64,000 nucleotides of DNA. Origin: Actinomycetota bacterium. Its GTDB lineage: Bacteria; Actinomycetota; Acidimicrobiia; IMCC26256; PALSA-610. This document shows positions 52,938 to 64,000 of this stretch, in pieces. A program made the position numbers and the translations under genes. The notes below the pieces were generated by a model. That model worked only from the letters and a program-made list of their open reading frames with translations. It did no database searches and was not told where the DNA came from. Within the stretch, counting starts at the first letter, position 1. Each line of letters begins with the position of its first letter. The DNA is taken from NCBI GenBank assembly GCA_003134555.1, contig PLBO01000151.1:148589-212588 (forward strand). The letters are read 5' to 3'.

Positions 52938-53694
52938 CAATCCGTTCTTGGCCGGAGATGTCGGCGCGCTCTACGCGCGGGGTCGCCCGTACCATCATCC
53001 GCGCTCGTTGACGCGGCTGCGTGCGCTGCTCGCGGGCCGCGACGGCGAGGTCGAACGGGCGCTCGACGTCGCCTGCGGAACCGGCATGTCGACGCTCGCG
53101 CTCGCCGAGTTCGCGGGCACGGTTGTCGGTCTCGACATCTCACCCGAGATGATGCGCGTCGCGCCGCAGGCGCCGAACACGTCGTACATGCTCGGTAGCG
53201 CGGAGCAACTGCCCTTCTCGGCGGGCGTATTCGACGCAGTGACATGTTCGACGGCGGTCCACTGGTTCGACCAGGCGAGGTTCTACACGGAGATACGGCG
53301 CGTCGTGCGACCGGAAGGGTGGATCGGGCTCTACGACCACTACTTCATAGGGATGCAGGGCGTCGACGAGTTTCGCGCCTGGACGATTGAGCTGTTCGAG
53401 CGCTACCCGCTCCCGGCGCGCGGCCTGCAGGTCGGCGATCCGCGAGCGGAGACGCCGCCCGGCTTCGAGTTGGTCGGCACCGACGGCTTCGAGGATCCGA
53501 TCGAGATGACGCCCGACGAGTTCGCCGACTACCAGCTCACGGTCAGCCACTGTGTCGAGGCCGTGGAGCGGGGCACGCCTCGTTCGGAGATCCGCGACTG
53601 GCTGATGACATCCACCGCGCCGTTGTACGGCGACGCTTCGACCCGGGTGGTGCAGTTCCTGGGAATGATCACCTGTCTGCGCCGTCTCCCGTAG
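52921..53694 (+). CDS. Class I SAM-dependent methyltransferase
   Basis: ERALDVACGTGMSTLALAEFAGTVVGLDISPEMM. Confidence 0.9.
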   Translation: MTTTPDNPFLAGDVGALYARGRPYHHPRSLTRLRALLAGRDGEVERALDVACGTGMSTLALAEFAGTVVGLDISPEMMRVAPQAPNTSYMLGSAEQLPFSAGVFDAVTCSTAVHWFDQARFYTEIRRVVRPEGWIGLYDHYFIGMQGVDEFRAWTIELFERYPLPARGLQVGDPRAETPPGFELVGTDGFEDPIEMTPDEFADYQLTVSHCVEAVERGTPRSEIRDWLMTSTAPLYGDASTRVVQFLGMITCLRRLP

Positions 53695-54871
53695 CGCGCA
53701 ACAGGCGGCGGAGGGGCTTGCCGCTCGCGGTCCGCGGGATCGTGTCGACGGCGCGCATCGCGCGCGGCAGTTTGGGACCGCTGAGCCGATCGCGACCGAA
53801 CGCGCGCAGCTCGTCGATCGACGGCGGCCGCGCCCCGACTCGGGCTACCACGTAAGCGACCACGAGCTCGCCCCATTCGTCGTCGGGCTCGCCGACTACA
53901 CAGACGTCGTGCACGTCGGGATGGGTCGCCAATACTCCCTCGACCTCGGTCGGGCTCACATTGACGCCGCCGGTGATGACGAGATCCTTCAACCGGTCGA
54001 TCACGTGGACGCGCCCGGCGTCGTCGAACGCACCCACATCGCCGGTGTGGAACCAACCGTCGGCATCGATTGCTTCCGCGGTACGGATCGGGTCGAGCCG
54101 GTACGCGCGCATCACCATCGCGCCGCGGACCACGATCTCGGCGTCGTCATCGAGCCGCACCTCCGCGCCCTCGATGGGCACCCCGTCGAGCGCGAGGCCG
54201 CCCCACGTCTCCGAGAGCCCGTACGCGTCGACGACGCGGACGCCGAGGCCAACGGCTCGCGCCCGCAGCGCGGGCGGACACGGTGCTCCGCCGCTTATGA
54301 CCCATCGGAACTCGTGCAGAGGCGCGTCGGCGTCGAGCAGCCGACGCATCGCGGTCGGTACGAGCGAAACGATCGTCGTTCCCTCGTCGCGCGGAGATCG
54401 CGCGACCCGTTCCATGTCGAAGCCGTCGTGCACAGTGCACGGCACACCGGTGACATGGGAACGCGCGAGGGCGCCGAGGCTCGCGACGTGGTGGAGGGGG
54501 AGGCACGCGAGCCAACGGTCGGCCGGCCCGGCGTCGAGGCCGTCGGAGTAGCCGCGGCCCATCACCTCCATGCCCGCACGCGTCAACTCCACACCCTTCG
54601 GCGCGCCCTCGGTGCCGCTGGTGACGACGATCGCCGCGGTGCCGGCCGGCGCGGGCAGGCCGCCCGGATACGCCGAGGGGTCGCCGGCGTCGAGGCCCGC
54701 GATGAGCGTGGGCCGGAGCCGTTCGAGGAGCGTCGTGATCTCGGCGCCCGTGAACGCGGGGTTGATCGGCAGGACCGCGCGGCCCTCGTCCCAGCAGCGC
54801 CGGGCGGCCTCCGCCAACGGGGGTCCGGTCGCGACCACGGCGACGACCTCGGTTTCGTCGTCGGCGGACAC
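53669..54871 (-). CDS. menE: o-Succinylbenzoate-CoA ligase (AMP-binding) MenE
   Basis: [67 protein letters not shown]; men context. Confidence 0.88.
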
Positions 54872-54890
54872 GCTCGATACCCTAACCGTA

Positions 54891-54904
54891 GGAGTGATCG
54901 CTCC
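54891..54904. promoter_or_regulatory. Palindromic operator candidate GGAGTGATCGCTCC in menE/menB divergent promoter
   Basis: 16 of 18 positions identical (54889-54906) to the element upstream of merR (63257-63274). Confidence 0.65.
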
Positions 54905-54956
54905 CAGAATCTCGCCCGCATGGATCATTCCGCAAAACGATCTTCTCGGAGGCCCC

Positions 54957-55799
54957 ATGGAGCCCGTAATCCGGCCCGGCGCCGACTGGAAACCGGCGAC
55001 ACCCGACGGTTTCACCGACGTCACCTACGAGACGTCCGACGGCGTCGCCAAGATCACGATCTGCCGGCCCGAGGTGCGAAACGCATTCCGGCCGCGCACG
55101 CTGTTCGAGCTGCGCGACGCGTTCGAGATCGCGCGTGACGATCCGGAGATCGGCGTGATCGTCCTCACGGGCGAAGGGCCCGACGCGTTCTGTTCCGGTG
55201 GCGACCAGCGCGTGCGGGGCGACGACGGCTACCGCGACGACAAGGGCATCGGCCGGCTCAACGTCCTCGACCTGCAAGTGCAGATCCGCCGGCTTCCGAA
55301 ACCGGTCGTCGCGATGGTCGCCGGCTACGCGATCGGTGGCGGTCATGTGTTGCACATCGTGTGCGACCTGACTATCGCGGCCGACAACGCGCGCTTCGGC
55401 CAGACCGGACCGCGGGTGGGTTCGTTCGACGGCGGTTTCGGGTCGGGCCTGCTGGCGCGCATCGTCGGGCAGAAGAAGGCGCGGGAGATCTGGTACCTGT
55501 GCGAGCAGTACGACGCGCCGGCGGCACTCGACATGGGTCTGGTGAACAAGGTCGTCCCGCTCGCCGATCTCGAGGTCGAGACGGTCGCGTGGGCGCGCAA
55601 GATGTTGCAGCATTCACCGCTCGCACTGCGCATGTTGAAAGCGTCGATGAACGCGGCCGACGACGGTCTCGCGGGCATCCAGCAACTCGCGGGCGATGCC
55701 ACCTTGCTCTACTACATGACCGAGGAGGCGCAGGAGGGCAAGAACGCCTACCTCGAAAAGCGCCGGCCCGAGTTCGAGAGATATCCCAAGCGCCCGTGA
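54957..55799 (+). CDS. menB: 1,4-Dihydroxy-2-naphthoyl-CoA synthase MenB
   Basis: [64 protein letters not shown]. Confidence 0.96.
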
Positions 55800-56665
55800 C
55801 CACCGCGCGGTTGTGGTACCAGGGAGCCCGGCCCAAGACGTTGGGTGCGGCGATCTCGCCGGTGCTCGTGGGGACTGCGGCCGGGTCGCTCGACGGCCCG
55901 ATCGACTGGCCGCGCGCGGGCGCCGCGGCGGTGGTCGCGCTCGCATTGCAGGTCGGTGTCAACTTCGCAAACGACTATTCCGACGGCGTGCGCGGTACCG
56001 ATGCACAGCGGCGCGGACCGGTGCGGCTCACCGCGACCGGGCTCGCGACGCCGCGTTCGGTCCGGAACGCGGCGTTCGTTGCGTTCGCGGTCGCCGCGGT
56101 CGTCGGCGCCGGGCTCTCGCTCGTAGTGAATCCGTGGCTCTTGCTCGTCGGTATCGCGGCGATCGGCGCCGCCGTCACCTATACGGGCGGACCGAAGCCC
56201 TACGGCTACATCGGGCTGGGCGAGGTGATGGTTCTCGTCTTCTTCGGGTTCGTCGCGACGGTCGGAAGCGCCTACGTGCAGCACGCGACGCTGCCTGGTG
56301 TCGCGTGGGTCGCCGCGTTCGCGGCCGGTCTGCCGGCCTGCGGCATCCTGGTTGCCAACAACGTGCGCGACGTCGACACGGATCGGGTCTCGGGCAAACG
56401 TACGCTCGCCGTGCGGCTCGGGCGGGAGCGCGCTCGCGGGCTCTACGTCGTGTGCATCGCGGGCGCGATCGTCGCCGTGGTCGCGTGCGGCGCGTTCGTG
56501 CCGCCGGCTTTGTTCGCGGTGCTCGCGCTGCCGCTCGCAGTCGCGCCGGTCCGCGCCATGTTGACCCGCCACGATCCTCCCGGTTTGATCGCGGCCCTGA
56601 TCGGAACCGTGCGGTTCCAGTTGGTGCTCTCGGTGCTGCTCGCGCTCGGGCTGTGGGCCGGCTAG
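55796..56665 (+). CDS. menA: 1,4-Dihydroxy-2-naphthoate polyprenyltransferase MenA
   Basis: [48 protein letters not shown]; overlaps menB stop. Confidence 0.95.
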
Positions 56666-57372
56666 CCGTGCCGCGCCGCGAACGACGCGATGAAGCCGCC
56701 GAGAACGGCCGGTTGCTCGAGCGGCAGCGCGTGGCCGCCGTCGAGACGGACGTGCACGACTTCGCCGCGCATGCGTTCGAGCATCGTGAGCGCGATCTTC
56801 TCGTATTTCGCGTCGGTCTTGCCCGTGACGAGCGCAACGGGCACCGCGAGCTCGGGGAGCCGATCCCACATGGGCTCCATCGCGCCGGCGCCGAGCACGC
56901 GCAGGCAGTGCGCGAGATACCGCTGCGACAGGGCGCGACGTTCACGGAGTCCCGGTGCATCGGGCGGAACAGTTGCGAACAGCGGTTGGGCGAGCCACCG
57001 GTCGAGGAACGCGTCGACGCCGTCACGCATGACCGACTCTGCCAGCGCCTCGTCGGATGCGATGCGCTCGCGGCGCGCGGCTTCGTCGGTGATGCCCGCG
57101 GTAGAGCTGACGAGCACGAGTGCCGGTACGAGCTCGGGCTGGTCGAGTGCCAACCGCAGCGCGAGGCGACCGCCCATCGAGTAGCCGACGTACACGGCGC
57201 GCTTGCCTTGTCGCCCGAGCGCGGCGGCCGTCGCCGCGAACGTCTCCTTCGCCGGCACGTCGAGCGCGGCGACCTCGCACGATTCCTCGAGGATCCGATT
57301 CACTCCCCGCCACGACGCGGCCGTCTGCGTGAACCCGGGAACGAGCACCACTCTCGGCCCTTGCGAACTCAT
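56662..57372 (-). CDS. menH: Alpha/beta hydrolase, MenH-like
   Basis: VVLVPGFTQTAASW, VGYSMGGRLALRLALDQPE; located between menA and menD. Confidence 0.82.
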   Translation of the reverse strand: MSSQGPRVVLVPGFTQTAASWRGVNRILEESCEVAALDVPAKETFAATAAALGRQGKRAVYVGYSMGGRLALRLALDQPELVPALVLVSSTAGITDEAARRERIASDEALAESVMRDGVDAFLDRWLAQPLFATVPPDAPGLRERRALSQRYLAHCLRVLGAGAMEPMWDRLPELAVPVALVTGKTDAKYEKIALTMLERMRGEVVHVRLDGGHALPLEQPAVLGGFIASFAARHG

Positions 57373-57389
57373 CGGGGAAGTGTGGCGCA

Positions 57390-59111
57390 ATGAGCGGCTT
57401 CGATGCGACGACCTCGTTCGCGCGGACGCTCGTCGACGAATGGGTCCGTAACGGCATCACGGCGGCGGTCGTGTCACCGGGGTCTCGGAACACCCCCCTC
57501 ACGCTCGCACTCGCGCGGGACGGGCGGATGAACGTCGACGTCGTGCTCGACGAACGCTCGGCCGGTTTCCGTGCGCTCGGCATCGGTCTGGCGACCGGCC
57601 GGCCCGCGATCGTGTGTTGCACGTCGGGTACCGCGGCCGTGAACCTGCACCCTGCGGTCGTCGAGGCTCACCACGCGCGGGTGCCATTGCTCGCCTGCAC
57701 GGCGGATCGGCCCGCCGAGTTGCGCGATTGGGGCGCCGGTCAGACGATCGACCAGGCCGGCCTCTACGGCGGCGCCGTTCGCTGGTTCCACGATCCCGGT
57801 CCGCCCGACGAGACGCTCTCCGGATCCGAAGCGAACGGGCGCTGGCGGGCGCTGGCGTGCCGCACGGCTGCCCACGCGTCGGGGCCGCCGGCGGGCCCGG
57901 TGCACCTCAATCTGCCGTTCCAGGAGCCCCTCGTACCCACCGGCGCGCCGCTGCTCGATACGCCGGGCCGCGCCGAGGGCGCGCCGTGGATCCGCGCGTC
58001 GAGGGCGCGCCGCGAGCCGGCAAATGACGATCTGGCGCGCATCGGCGCGCTCGTGCGCGCACATCCGCGTGGCGTTCTGGTCGCGGGGTGGGGCGCGGGC
58101 GTCGATCCCGTCGTCGCCGAGCGGTTCGCGCGCGCCGCGGGCTGGCCGATCGTCGCCGATCCGATCTCGCAATTGCGGACAGGTCCGTACGCGGTGTCGA
58201 CGTACGACGCGCTTCTGCGCGTCGACGGGTTCGCGCGCGCACACGAGCCCGAGCTCGTCGTCCGCGTCGGCGGCCCCCTGACGAGCAAGATCGCCAATGC
58301 GTGGCTCGACGACATCCCGACCGTGCTGGTCGACCCCGACGACGCGTGGTTGGATCCGCAGCACGCGGCGCACGAGCGAGTTCAAGCCGATGGCAACGCG
58401 CTGCTCGCCGCCTTGACGAAGGAACTCGCGGGGCCGTACTCGCGGCAGTGGCTCGCCGAGTGGCGCGCCGCTGAACAGCGGGCCCGGCGCGCGCTCGATC
58501 GGGTACTGGACGACGACATTGCCTGCGAGGGCCGCATCGCCCGCGATGTCGCGGCCGCGGTTCCGGTCGACGGCGCGCTCCTCGTCGCGTCGAGCCTCCC
58601 GGTGCGCGCGCTCGAGTGGTGCATGACGCCCCGTGCTCATTTGCGGGTGCTTGCAAATCGGGGTGTTAACGGGATCGACGGCTTCGTGTCGACCGTCTTC
58701 GGCGTCGCGAGTGCTCACGCCGGGCCTGTCGTCGCGCTGTGCGGCGATCTCTGCCTGCTGCACGATACGAATGGCTTGCTCGTCGGCGACCGAAGCGGGG
58801 GTCGGGCCGGTGCGCGACCGCCGGTGACGTTCGTCGTCGTCGACAACGACGGCGGCGGAATCTTCTCCTACCTGCCGCAGCACGAGCTGGCAGAGTTCGA
58901 GAGACTCTTCGCGACTCCGCAAGCGGTCGACGTCGTCGCGGTCGCCCGGGCGCACGGTGTGGCGGCGGAACGGGTCGAGCTCGCCGCCGTGCCCAAGTTG
59001 GTCGCGGAAGGCGCCGACACTGATCGGGTGCTGGTCGTTCCCGTCGACCGCCGCGCCGCCGTGGAACAACACACCCGCGGGTGGCACGCGGTTGCGACGT
59101 CGCTCGCGTGA
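57390..59111 (+). CDS. menD: SEPHCHC synthase MenD
   Basis: VVSPGSRNTPLTLALARDGRMNVDVVLDERSAGFRALGIGLATGRPAIVCCTSGTAAVNLHPAVVEAHHARVPLLACTADRPAELRD. Confidence 0.96.
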   Translation: MSGFDATTSFARTLVDEWVRNGITAAVVSPGSRNTPLTLALARDGRMNVDVVLDERSAGFRALGIGLATGRPAIVCCTSGTAAVNLHPAVVEAHHARVPLLACTADRPAELRDWGAGQTIDQAGLYGGAVRWFHDPGPPDETLSGSEANGRWRALACRTAAHASGPPAGPVHLNLPFQEPLVPTGAPLLDTPGRAEGAPWIRASRARREPANDDLARIGALVRAHPRGVLVAGWGAGVDPVVAERFARAAGWPIVADPISQLRTGPYAVSTYDALLRVDGFARAHEPELVVRVGGPLTSKIANAWLDDIPTVLVDPDDAWLDPQHAAHERVQADGNALLAALTKELAGPYSRQWLAEWRAAEQRARRALDRVLDDDIACEGRIARDVAAAVPVDGALLVASSLPVRALEWCMTPRAHLRVLANRGVNGIDGFVSTVFGVASAHAGPVVALCGDLCLLHDTNGLLVGDRSGGRAGARPPVTFVVVDNDGGGIFSYLPQHELAEFERLFATPQAVDVVAVARAHGVAAERVELAAVPKLVAEGADTDRVLVVPVDRRAAVEQHTRGWHAVATSLA

Positions 59112-59157
59112 GGGTTCCGAATAGCATCGGCGCGTTCCTTACAGGGGAGCGGGAATT

Positions 59158-60579
59158 GTGCTGATGCCGGGAAGTGACGAGCGCGAACGATGGGCCGCGC
59201 GGGCCCGCGCCGAACCGTGGGGCCGCGTGCTCGTCTACGTCGCGCTCACGACCGCGACGGTTTCCATCTCGACGTTGCTGCTCGCGGTGAAGTCGATCAC
59301 GCCACCGCAACGCGCCGGGCTCGTCGCCGTGGCGCTCGGCGCGTGGGTGCTGCTGGTGGCGTTGGGCTGGACGCGGGGCACGCTGCCCTTGAAGCCGTTG
59401 CTCGCGGCGATCGGGATCACATTGCTGTTTGCGGTCGCGACGCCGTCGAACCAGTCGACCGACGTGAATTCCTATGCAATGTACGGACGCATCCTCACCG
59501 TGCACCACCAGAATCCGTTCGCGTCGTATCCGATGCACTTCGAGGGAGACCCGATGCGGCGGCGCGTCGGCCCGATCTGGCAGCGCACGCCCGACATCTA
59601 CGGGCTCAGTTTCACTGTGGTCATGGCCGCGCTGGCGCCCGTGATCGGCGAGTCCGGCTTCCTCGTTCACTTCACGTATCAACTCGTCGCGTTGTGCGCG
59701 GCCGGAGCGATGCTGTGGCTGTTGTGGCGGCGAACGCGCAAACCCGCCGTCCTCGCGTTCGTCGGCCTTCATCCGCTCCTCGCGGTCAGTGTCGTGAACG
59801 GCGGTCATCCCGATGCGCTCGTCGCGCTCGGCGTGCTCGTCGGCCTGATGCTCGCGATCGAGCGGCGACCCGTGCTCGCCGGCGTCGCGTTCGCGTTCGC
59901 CGCCTCCGTCAACTTCACTGCCCTCGTCGCGGCCGCGGTGCTCTGCGTCTGGGCGTTGCGACGCTGGAGCCGCCCCGAGGTCGCGAAGTTCGCCGCGATC
60001 GTCGGAGGTTTGGGCGCGCTGCCGTACCTGCTCCTGTCGGGTTGGCTGCAGAACGCGCACGAGCACTCCGGCCTCGTCAGCCGGCAGTCGATCTGGAACG
60101 CGATCGGCAACTTCATCGGCAGCGCCGACCTGCTGCGCACGCTCGCGTCGAACGGCACGACGATCGTCGCGGGCGCCCTGCTCGTCGTGATCGCGATCCG
60201 GCACACGTCGCGCGGAACGCCCGAGCTCGCGATCGCGGCCGGGCTGGCGTCGTTCCTCGTCGCCAGCTCCTGGGTCATGCCGTGGTACGCGTTCACGGCG
60301 CTCCCGCTGCTCGCGCTGCGCCGACCCAACCTTTTGAGCTGGACGGTCGCGCTCTACTCGTCGCTGGTATTGCTGGGCGAGCAGTACCCGTCGCTCTCGG
60401 CCTCGGCGATCGGTTCAGTCGGACACATGCTGTTGCAGAACGTGCTTCCGATCGTGGCGTTCGTCTGCTGCGTGAGCGTCGTCGTGTTCCGTCCGCGCGA
60501 GGTTCTCGCCGGCGATCTCACGGAAGCGCCGGTCGACGCGACGGTTACGGTCGCACCAACGCTTGCAGCATCGGCGTGA
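59158..60579 (+). CDS. Polytopic membrane glycosyltransferase (mannosyltransferase-like)
   Basis: Many TM helices; STDVNSYAMYGRILTVHHQNPFASYP loop typical of polyprenyl-phosphate-dependent GTs. Confidence 0.75.
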   Translation: MLMPGSDERERWAARARAEPWGRVLVYVALTTATVSISTLLLAVKSITPPQRAGLVAVALGAWVLLVALGWTRGTLPLKPLLAAIGITLLFAVATPSNQSTDVNSYAMYGRILTVHHQNPFASYPMHFEGDPMRRRVGPIWQRTPDIYGLSFTVVMAALAPVIGESGFLVHFTYQLVALCAAGAMLWLLWRRTRKPAVLAFVGLHPLLAVSVVNGGHPDALVALGVLVGLMLAIERRPVLAGVAFAFAASVNFTALVAAAVLCVWALRRWSRPEVAKFAAIVGGLGALPYLLLSGWLQNAHEHSGLVSRQSIWNAIGNFIGSADLLRTLASNGTTIVAGALLVVIAIRHTSRGTPELAIAAGLASFLVASSWVMPWYAFTALPLLALRRPNLLSWTVALYSSLVLLGEQYPSLSASAIGSVGHMLLQNVLPIVAFVCCVSVVVFRPREVLAGDLTEAPVDATVTVAPTLAASA

Positions 60580-61729
60580 GCTTTTGCTGAGTTTCCGCCC
60601 ACTCGGCATCGGGGTCGGAACCGGCGACGATGCCCGCGCCGGCGTGAATCACCGCGTGAGTACCGTCGATCTCGCCCCCGCGTAGCGCGACGACGAATTC
60701 GCCGTCGCCGTGGCGGTCGATCCACCCGCAGGGACCCGCGTAGCGCCCGCGCCCGACCGTTTCCATCGCGTCGATCGCATCGAGCGCGAGCCGGCGCGGG
60801 GTGCCCGCGACGGCCGGGGTGGGGTGCAGCGCGGCGACGAGGTCGGCGATCGACGTCGTCGCGGATTCGGCGCGCCCGGTGACAGTGGTCGCCAGATGGC
60901 TCACGTCGGCGAGCTCGAGCGGCGACGGCCCGTCGGTACGAACGTCGGAGCAGAAGTTGCGCAGGGCGTCGACGACCGCATCGACGACGAGCCGGTGCTC
61001 GTGCGCGTCCTTCGCCGATCGGACCAGAGCGGCCGTCTCGACGGCGGTCCCGGCGAGGGGGCGCGACGTTACGGCCGTGCCGACCTTGCGCAGGAGCAAT
61101 TCGGGGCTGGCTCCGAGAAAGCCGCGGTCGGCGTACACGATGCACCCGGGTTGTGAACGACGCAGGTGCGCGAGCACCGCGGCGACGTCGAACGGGTGGT
61201 TGGCGTCGATGCGGACCGCGCGTGCGAGCACGACTTTCTCGAGCGCCCCGCGGCCGATGTCGTCGAGTGCGCGACGAACCATCGTCCGCCACTGGTCTCG
61301 TGTGATCGCGGCGACGACGCCGAACTCGGACGGCGGGGAATCCGGATCCGCGGACAACTCGGGGCGCGGCACGTCGACGTCGTCGATGACGGTGCGCCAC
61401 GTACGGCCTTCGTCGTCGCGCCCGACGATCATTGCAGGCACGACGAGATGACCCGGTCCGCCGAACGGCAGCGCGCCGACGGCGCGCGGGCCCGCAGAAT
61501 CGGGCACGGGCGCGCCGGCCGGCGAGTGCGCGATGGTCGCGAGGAACGACGGCGCGTCGGCCGGTGCGACGACAGCTGCCACTCCCCACGTCACGAAGCC
61601 GTGATCACCGTCGAGCCACGCGAACCCGTCGGCGGTGCAGTAGTCGATCAGGTCGATCGGGCCGTCGATCGCGAAGCTGCGGGCGGCAAGGCGGTGACCG
61701 GAGCGCAGCGAGATGCCGGACGTCGTCAT
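60545..61729 (-). CDS. menF: Isochorismate synthase MenF
   Basis: ALEKVVLARAVRI, LHPTPAVAGTPRRLALDAI, GRGRYAGPCGWIDRHGDGEFVVALRGGEI. Confidence 0.94.
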   Translation of the reverse strand: MTTSGISLRSGHRLAARSFAIDGPIDLIDYCTADGFAWLDGDHGFVTWGVAAVVAPADAPSFLATIAHSPAGAPVPDSAGPRAVGALPFGGPGHLVVPAMIVGRDDEGRTWRTVIDDVDVPRPELSADPDSPPSEFGVVAAITRDQWRTMVRRALDDIGRGALEKVVLARAVRIDANHPFDVAAVLAHLRRSQPGCIVYADRGFLGASPELLLRKVGTAVTSRPLAGTAVETAALVRSAKDAHEHRLVVDAVVDALRNFCSDVRTDGPSPLELADVSHLATTVTGRAESATTSIADLVAALHPTPAVAGTPRRLALDAIDAMETVGRGRYAGPCGWIDRHGDGEFVVALRGGEIDGTHAVIHAGAGIVAGSDPDAEWAETQQKLTPMLQALVRP

Positions 61730-62451
61730 CTCGATGCCGCCCGACTTCCCGTGATGAGTTGAGCCGCGCCGAATCCCAGCGTGCGCCGGCTGACGTCGAC
61801 GATGCCGGCCGCGACGACGAGCCCGAGCAGCTCGGGCACCGGCGGGAGGTACGCGGTCGAAGCCGGCAGGTAGCGATATGCCGCGCGATCAGAGACGAGG
61901 CCGCCGACGAACGGCACTACGTGGCGGAACCAGGCGCCGTGCACGAAGCGCACCGCCGGGCTCACGGGCTCGGCGACGTCGAGCAGCGCGACGCGCCCGC
62001 CCGGGCGCAGCACCCGGCCGCACTCGGCCAGCACGGTCGCGAGCGCGGCGAAGTTGCGCAATGCGAATCCGCACGTGATGCCGTCGAAGGTCGCGTCGGC
62101 GAACGGCAACTGCATCGCGTCGCCGCGCACGAGAGGTGCGTTGGTGTGTGCCGCGCGCAACATGCCGGTCGAGAAATCGACGCCGACCGCATCGTGGCCG
62201 GCCTCGACGAGCGTCCGGCACAGGTCGCCCGTACCGCACGCGAGGTCGAGCACTCGGGAAGATCGGGGTAGCAACAGGGCGCGCACGGCGGTTCGGCGCC
62301 AGCCGACGTCCATGCGGAACGTGAGCACTCGATTCAGCGCGTCGTAGCGAGGCGCGATCCGATCGAACATCGCCTCGACGACGCGCGGCTTGTCGTCGAC
62401 GTCGGGGAGGTCGGGGACTGCGGCGATCGCGGTGTTCGGAGCACGGCTCAT
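61726..62451 (-). CDS. menG: Demethylmenaquinone methyltransferase MenG (UbiE)
   Basis: MFDRIAPRYDALNRVLTFRMDVGWRR, VLDLACGTGDLCRTLVEAGHDAVGVDFSTGML. Confidence 0.94.
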   Translation of the reverse strand: MSRAPNTAIAAVPDLPDVDDKPRVVEAMFDRIAPRYDALNRVLTFRMDVGWRRTAVRALLLPRSSRVLDLACGTGDLCRTLVEAGHDAVGVDFSTGMLRAAHTNAPLVRGDAMQLPFADATFDGITCGFALRNFAALATVLAECGRVLRPGGRVALLDVAEPVSPAVRFVHGAWFRHVVPFVGGLVSDRAAYRYLPASTAYLPPVPELLGLVVAAGIVDVSRRTLGFGAAQLITGSRAASR

Positions 62452-63245
62452 GTCGTCCAGCTCTCGAGTCGGCTCGCGGCGGCGATGTTGACGGCGGCGA
62501 GCTCGGTCTCCTCTCCCACCGATTCGAGGTGCTCCTGCGCGACCTCGAGCAGCACGCGCCGGAAATGATGCGTGACGAGTGCGGTGACGGCCGGGAGCAG
62601 TGCACGGAAGGCTTCGACGAGCCGTTCGGCCTTCTCGTCGTCGGGCAGGTCGGACGCGCGCAGCGGTGCGCGGACGTAGCGATCGAACAGCCCGACGGCC
62701 GTCTCCGCGATGTCGCGCGTCGTCTCGTGATGTTCGTGCGCGAGCGCGAGCAGTTCCGGGAGCGGAAGTCCCTGCTCGAGCAGGTGCAAGCCTTGCTGCA
62801 CGATGGCGACGTCGGCCGTGGTGTAGCGCGCTTCGCCGTCGTGCACGCGCGCGACGAGGAGGTTCTCGCGAGCAACGGCCTCGAGCAGCGCGCCCGGCAC
62901 GCCGGAGCGCTCGGCGAGCTCGGCGAGGGTGAGGAATTCTTCGGGAGCCTCGGCGTCGGCTCGCGCAACCGCGGCCGCCAGCGGCGCGTCGGTGGGGTCG
63001 AGATCGCCGTCGAAGATGCGACCGATGAGGGCAAGGGTGAGGCCGCGGCCGCGCAGTTCCCTTACGCGCCCCAGGCGCTCGAGGTGGTCGGGGCCGTACC
63101 AGGCGACCCGCCCCGACCGCTCCGGCGGCGGAAGCAGACGACGCTTTTGGTAGAAGCGGATGGTGTCGACCGAGAGGTCGGCGCGGCGGGCCAGTTCCTC
63201 GACCCGCCACTGCTCCGTGGGCTGGTCCGTCGCCTCGGCCGTCAC
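62448..63245 (-). CDS. MerR-family transcriptional regulator, heads menG-menF operon
   Basis: WRVEELARRADLSVDTIRFYQKRRLLPPPERSGRVAWYGPDHLERLGRVRELRGRGLTLALIG; second HTH-like LTLAELAERSGVPGALLEAV; GTG start 63245. Confidence 0.9.
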   Translation of the reverse strand: MTAEATDQPTEQWRVEELARRADLSVDTIRFYQKRRLLPPPERSGRVAWYGPDHLERLGRVRELRGRGLTLALIGRIFDGDLDPTDAPLAAAVARADAEAPEEFLTLAELAERSGVPGALLEAVARENLLVARVHDGEARYTTADVAIVQQGLHLLEQGLPLPELLALAHEHHETTRDIAETAVGLFDRYVRAPLRASDLPDDEKAERLVEAFRALLPAVTALVTHHFRRVLLEVAQEHLESVGEETELAAVNIAAASRLESWTT

Positions 63246-63252
63246 GGATCCG

Positions 63253-63258
63253 ATTCTA
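63253..63258 (-). promoter_or_regulatory. -10 box TAGAAT of merR-menG-menF, leaderless
   Basis: 7-nt spacer to GTG 63245; directly abuts palindromic element. Confidence 0.6.
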
Positions 63259-63272
63259 GGAGTGTTCACTCC
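63259..63272. promoter_or_regulatory. Palindromic operator candidate GGAGTGTTCACTCC upstream of merR
   Basis: Perfect GGAGTG-TT-CACTCC dyad in the position expected for a MerR operator (upstream of -10). Confidence 0.7.
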
Positions 63273-63291
63273 CAAGGTCCCGATCGGCCCA

Positions 63292-63367: not shown

Positions 63368-64000
63368 TTAGGTGCTGCGCCAGACGGGCGGGCGCTTCTC
63401 GGCGAAGGCGGTTGCACCCTCGACGGCGTCGCCGCTCTCGAACACGGGCATCATCAGCTCCATCGTGCGCTTGAAACCCTCGGCCTCGGTCAGCTCCGCG
63501 GCCTCGCGCACCAGTCGGCGGGAGTTGCGCACCGCGATGGGCGAGTTCTCGCCGATGCGCTCGGCGATCGCGATTGCTTCGTCGACCACGCGTGTCGCGG
63601 GCACGACCCGGTTCACGAGCCCGAGCTGCAGCGCGCGTTCCGCGTCGATCGGGTCGCCCGTCATCGCGAGCTCTAGCGCGATCGCGAGCGGGACGCGTTT
63701 GGGTAGCCGGATCAAACCGCCGGCCGCGGCCATGAGTCCGCGCTTCACCTCGGGGATGCCGAAGCGCGCGGTCTCGGCCGCGACGACGAGATCGCACGAG
63801 AGCACGATCTCGAATCCGCCCGCGAGCGCGGGTCCGTTGACCGCGGCGATGATCGGCTTCGGGAAGTCGCGCGTCACGATGCCGGCGAAGCCGCCCTTAC
63901 CCCGAGCGATGTCGTTCGCCTTGCCCTGGGCGACCACCTTGAGGTCGGCGCCGGCCGAGAACACCTCGCCCGCGCCGGTGAGCACGACCGCGCGCACCGC
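63368..64000 (-). CDS. Enoyl-CoA hydratase/isomerase family protein, N-terminus beyond window
   Basis: VFSAGADLKVVAQG, NGPALAGGFEIVLSCDLVVAAETARFGIPEVKRGLMAAAGGL; frame open to edge. Confidence 0.9.
   Translation of the reverse strand, partial: AVRAVVLTGAGEVFSAGADLKVVAQGKANDIARGKGGFAGIVTRDFPKPIIAAVNGPALAGGFEIVLSCDLVVAAETARFGIPEVKRGLMAAAGGLIRLPKRVPLAIALELAMTGDPIDAERALQLGLVNRVVPATRVVDEAIAIAERIGENSPIAVRNSRRLVREAAELTEAEGFKRTMELMMPVFESGDAVEGATAFAEKRPPVWRST

Follow-up and report, generated by a model that had tools for sequence, protein, structure and literature searches.

A MerR-family protein as a probable dedicated regulator of menaquinone synthesis in an actinobacterial men cluster

Many bacteria depend on menaquinone (vitamin K2) as an electron carrier, and the locus described here may place its synthesis under a regulator of its own. 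The locus lies in a 64-kb stretch of DNA (hereafter the window, meaning the whole stretch analysed) from contig 83 of a draft genome of 4.63 Mb. Those of its close relatives that have named records are Acidimicrobiia and other Actinomycetota assembled from metagenomes. Here, a menaquinone (men) cluster ends with a gene for a MerR-family protein (merR, 62448–63245, minus strand; GTG start, 265 aa including the GTG). Judged from the sequence, this protein is, at a probability of roughly 85%, a dedicated menaquinone regulator that is autoregulated and binds a palindrome in both its own promoter and that of menE|menBA, probably repressing them. The arrangement, which recurs in dozens of relatives, has the appearance of an ancient control devoted to respiratory quinone synthesis. 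Neither a MerR regulator of men genes nor any other dedicated transcriptional regulator of menaquinone synthesis was found described in the open-access literature, nor was a regulator that joins this target pathway to such an operator geometry and sensor domain; the DNA-binding domain is that of the known MerR family.

Two copies of a palindrome at the men promoters

The preliminary description reported two similar 18-mers, and both were recovered exactly as it gave them: operator 1 (TAGGAGTGTTCACTCCCA, 63257–63274) within the merR-menG-menF promoter, and operator 2 (TAGGAGTGATCGCTCCCA, 54889–54906), common to the divergent menE and menB promoters, neither being assigned a strand. At no more than one mismatch, TNGGAGYGNNCRCTCCNA occurs only at these two sites in the 64 kb, against 0.12 expected, and two sites were reached in 1 of 100 shuffles. 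An exact match to GGAGTGNNCACTCC occurs once in the whole genome; the few other sites with one mismatch apparently lie inside reading frames, and a -10 box follows none of them.

The TANNNT box proposed after the merR site is present as TAGAAT (63253–63258, minus strand), which directly follows the palindrome and overlaps the last two bases of operator 1. It ends 7 nt before the GTG, and therefore the merR transcript is probably leaderless. At the other site, a single dyad stands between two divergent promoters. The TACGGT that had been named as the menE box (54885–54890, minus strand) does directly adjoin the palindrome, but its role is contested by TAGGGT (54879–54884, minus strand), an alternative menE -10 at leaderless distance; TACGGT may be the menE -10 or, on the opposite strand, contribute to the menB -35. 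On the menB side the dyad is abutted by CAGAAT (54905–54910, plus strand), the likely menB -10, which takes the form CANNNT in most relatives.

Of the 58 genomes searched within the window's order, about 41 encode a strong merR ortholog, which stands immediately before menG-menF or menF and usually overlaps it. The palindrome, or a variant with 2–4 changes that keeps GAG..CTCC, was observed just upstream of merR in 30/30 loci first examined, with TAGAAT, TACAAT or a similar box directly after it, and it holds the same position in about 75 orthologous merR promoters. In profiles of 44 promoters, GGAG, CTCC, the TA of the -10 box and its final T were invariant, and the distance from the -10 to the start codon was 6–8 nt in 42 of them; therefore, merR is probably leaderless in these relatives as well. 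An inverted repeat just 5' of start codons could also be read as an RNA hairpin in the 5' leaders, acting as an attenuator or as part of a riboswitch. However, the merR -10 lies downstream of the palindrome in nearly all promoters, hence the palindrome is not transcribed from that promoter, and no Rfam match was obtained. An RNA element was rejected on these grounds, the palindrome being upstream of the likely transcription start, and this explanation is very improbable.

The menE|menB gaps taken from relatives, the window's own genome included, contained TNGGAG-N6-CTCCNA in 30/30 genomes tested, whereas shuffling gave 0.0004 per sequence (6/15000 shuffles). In one relative (L141), menB is located elsewhere and the site lies in the menA|menE gap. 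These data bear on whether the two sites resemble each other by chance: GGAGTGNNCACTCC-like sites with two mismatches are common in GC-rich DNA, 3 being expected per window, but an 18-mer pair is unlikely, and its conservation across tens of genomes excludes coincidence, which can practically be dismissed.

Specificity of the sites and identity of the binding protein

When GGAGYRNNYRCTCCTANNNT, which combines the palindrome with the -10, was searched across the order, 53 of the 54 matches fell at the merR promoter or at the menE site, against 23 matches to the reversed control pattern. The palindrome without the -10 gave few further matches in the order, apparently within reading frames (the frame is weakest for L162) and with a -10 box after none. 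As far as these scans go, this is a dedicated two-site regulon, not a global motif. A wider regulon was considered and rejected: the near-matches in the own genome and the exact off-locus matches in relatives apparently lie in reading frames, with no -10, and G005:C218 and G034:C98 proved to be menE sites located on other contigs. Scanning the own genome and the same-order genomes, as the preliminary description had proposed, did not place the motif at many unrelated loci, and in phylogenetic footprinting nearly all genomes that retain merR-menG-menF retained the motif too. Neither of these two refuting conditions was thus borne out, and the proposed MerR control of menaquinone genes is supported.

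The palindrome was absent from the menE|menB gap in 4/4 relatives that have menB and lack a MerR ortholog (G057, G024, G025 and G026). The site is present without merR in the assemblies G021 and G053; a contig that breaks off within the cluster and poor completeness account for this.

The preliminary description had proposed the regulator for this lineage; a profile search over 396 genomes across the phylum showed that it is not confined to it. Strong merR orthologs were found in several families outside the class, in other classes of the phylum, with merR-menG-menF or merR-menF retained. In these genomes the palindrome usually reads TTCGAGYG-NN-CACTCGTAGAGT, with C:G in place of G:C as the outer pair of each half-site, while its position relative to the -10 and the leaderless start are unchanged; the matching CGAG-N6-CTC form was present in 6/8 menE|menB gaps, or their equivalents, of C:G genomes. 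The residue following DTIRFYQ in the recognition helix (Lys33) is Lys in 44/44 G:C promoters and Ser, Thr, Ala or Gly in 18/18 C:G promoters. This co-variation is suggestive of this very protein reading that base pair, and the switch offers a ready test of DNA recognition. A regulon so precisely defined, with two sites and conserved in several classes of the phylum, also makes the setting of bacterial quinone levels directly testable.

Such short palindromes are frequent among TetR-family regulators, and MerR dyads are usually longer and placed elsewhere in the spacer. The palindrome might thus be the operator of another regulator, for example a TetR-type repressor of an acyl-CoA pathway, with merR as a mere co-regulated passenger, and an enoyl-CoA hydratase gene does adjoin merR. 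Against this, the sites occur at merR and the men genes only and not at other acyl-CoA genes, they are missing where MerR is missing or has lost its winged helix-turn-helix (wHTH), and the outer base pair shifts along with the recognition-helix residue. We consider another regulator improbable. There is a strong sequence-based case for MerR itself as the binder, because the palindrome is absent where MerR or its wHTH is absent and its outer pair co-varies with the recognition helix.

More diverged relatives of merR were also encountered. In G060 (L201:4402–5109), a diverged merR (41%) lies beside menG, and a TGAGCAAATGCTCA palindrome abuts TACAAT, with a third variant of the outer pair, T:A, and Ala at position 33. 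Still more diverged MerR genes lie beside men genes in L201, L202 and L214, from other genomes of the same class; therefore, an older and wider MerR-men family than the search thresholds show is suggested.

Direction of control and the sensor domain

In the proposed mechanism, a MerR dimer would recognise the palindrome of 18 bp (TNGGAGYG-NN-CRCTCCNA) at the promoter of its own operon, merR-menG-menF, and again at the divergent menE|menBA promoter, so that both arms of the menaquinone pathway would be controlled together. Since the operator occupies the spacer and touches or overlaps the -10, the resting action would probably be repression with negative autoregulation, lowering both arms and merR itself. 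A signal at the C-terminal helical domain may then relieve or strengthen repression; this signal would most plausibly be a hydrophobic or quinone-pathway compound, or the redox state acting through one.

In the promoter geometry, the dyad abuts the -10 and a 17-bp spacer is clear in one clade, which seems unlike classical MerR activators. The latter have spacers of 19–20 bp (PMC9909328; PMC1526738), and MerR-type activation is lost when the spacer is shortened (PMC9909328). In merR promoters of the window's clade, a -35-like GACY is located 17 bp upstream; the -35 is weak, and spacers of 17 and 19 bp scored 2.52 and 2.66 of 6, respectively. A TTGNNA-like -35 at 19 bp, the normal distance for classical MerR promoters, therefore scores no worse than one at 17 bp, and the protein could be a ligand-dependent activator that untwists a long spacer rather than a repressor. 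In the C:G clade, by contrast, 17 bp is clearly better (3.26 matches vs 1.71 for 19 bp), the dyad abuts the -10 rather than being centred in the spacer, and a single dyad serves two overlapping promoters at menE|menB. Activation is unlikely, although it deserves serious attention. Repression is proposed with moderate confidence, because the dyad stands against the -10, the spacer of the C:G clade is 17 bp, shortened spacers abolish MerR activation, and a precedent exists in CvkR.

CvkR, the MerR-type repressor of a type V-K CRISPR-associated transposon (CAST), resembles the present protein in its short palindrome, its leaderless regulator mRNA, repression (which here is inferred) and the 17-nt spacer at one of its targets (PMC9938897), whereas its motif and targets are unrelated and the protein is shorter. 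FtsR of Corynebacterium glutamicum and Rv1828 of Mycobacterium tuberculosis, also actinobacterial, share with the window's MerR an N-terminal MerR wHTH followed by a second wHTH-like, helical C-terminal part. FtsR, a dimer, activates ftsZ through an imperfect inverted repeat of 25 bp (AACCCTAAAGTAAAGGTTGAGGGTA; PMC6683498); here, in contrast, an unrelated 18-mer is found at men genes. Orthology with FtsR was rejected (NF050798, 37.1 bits vs a cut-off of 150), and a paralog on C96 of the own genome also fell below this cut-off with 42 bits.

The protein belongs to the MerR family by its N-terminal wHTH (PF13411, 85 bits, cut-off 21.6; PF00376, 39.6 bits, cut-off 28.2). In its predicted structure (pLDDT 87), the canonical MerR wHTH is followed by another wHTH, which is degenerate, and by long helices that would form the sensor domain. 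The best structural match of this model was the regulatory domain of the mycobacterial adenylyl cyclase Rv1264 (E 2e-4); next came MerR proteins and the Rv1828/FtsR C-terminal domain. The corresponding Pfam family, Ad_Cy_reg (PF16701), matched 7/35 orthologs with a best E of 1.9e-6, and no match was obtained for the window's own MerR. The domain that resembles the MerR sensor part is attached to a cyclase in Rv1264 and to a MerR DNA-binding domain here. The Rv1264 regulatory domain holds oleic acid, according to PMC12505454, which cites Findeisen 2007; this is a feature of Rv1264. By analogy, there is a weak indication that the ligand belongs to a lipid or quinone-pathway class. A precedent for a regulator that reads quinone-synthesis flux is SlyA, which senses aromatic carboxylates of the quinone pathway (PMC12506092), but it is a MarR-family protein and not dedicated to quinone-synthesis operons.

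In five genomes from several lineages of the phylum, the MerR wHTH has been lost and a sensor-only protein of 168–192 residues is kept next to menF (L205:4015–4578, L206:5026–5601, L207:4182–4757, L208:3939–4460 and L224:4089–4592). The GAG-N6-CTC palindrome was not found upstream of these five proteins, and a model of the stand-alone sensor (pLDDT 91) again had Rv1264N as its best match (E 7e-5, TM up to 0.59). Such proteins, which pose the question of the domain's role without DNA, may act on pathway enzymes or may be decaying regulators. We suggest, tentatively and with considerable doubt, that the sensor is an Rv1264N-like lipid-binding module reading menaquinone, a polyprenyl precursor or 1,4-dihydroxy-2-naphthoate (DHNA), and would thus serve as a feedback sensor of the quinone pool, the wHTH-less forms being the same sensor re-used on pathway enzymes.

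Several observations weigh against the picture of a MerR repressor with such a sensor. Besides the near-equal spacer scores in the window's clade, which leave activation a share of the probability, G056 carries merR with no visible operator, the sole exception in the order among the merR promoters checked, and G054 (L133) is without the second site. The switch of Lys33 and the operator corresponds on the tree to two changes and is essentially one event, not independent replication. The resemblance of the MerR model to Rv1264N is moderate (TM 0.4–0.6), and PF16701 stays below its gathering cut-off in members scored individually (best 25.5 vs 28.6 bits).

The men cluster and neighbouring observations

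The menaquinone cluster occupies 53669–63245 in the order menE(-), menB-menA(+), menH(-), menD(+), a GT87-like gene(+), menF(-), menG(-) and merR(-). Curated NCBIfam cut-offs were passed by menB (1,4-dihydroxy-2-naphthoyl-CoA synthase, 54957–55799, plus strand; TIGR01929 and NF005637), menA (DHNA polyprenyltransferase, 55796–56665, plus; TIGR00751), menD (SEPHCHC synthase, 57390–59111, plus; TIGR00173), menF (isochorismate synthase, 60545–61729, minus; TIGR00543) and menG (demethylmenaquinone methyltransferase, 61726–62451, minus; TIGR01934). For menE (o-succinylbenzoate-CoA ligase, 53669–54871, minus) and menH (56662–57390, minus; TIGR03695), the best matches were below the curated cut-offs, and the name of menE rests partly on context. 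The gene menC was not recognised among the scanned genes of this cluster and may be elsewhere in the genome. The overlaps of merR with menG and of menG with menF, as previously described, were found to be ATGA in each case.

Just upstream of merR, with the operator between them, the enoyl-CoA hydratase gene (63368–64000 of the window) lies on the same strand, and this arrangement is kept in L102, L104, L108, L109, L113, L120 and others. Finally, a metagenome-assembled genome labelled Bifidobacterium breve (G043, CAMDCC01) contains two men clusters of the Acidimicrobiia type (L115 and L122), both with operators, and is a mislabelled or mixed assembly.

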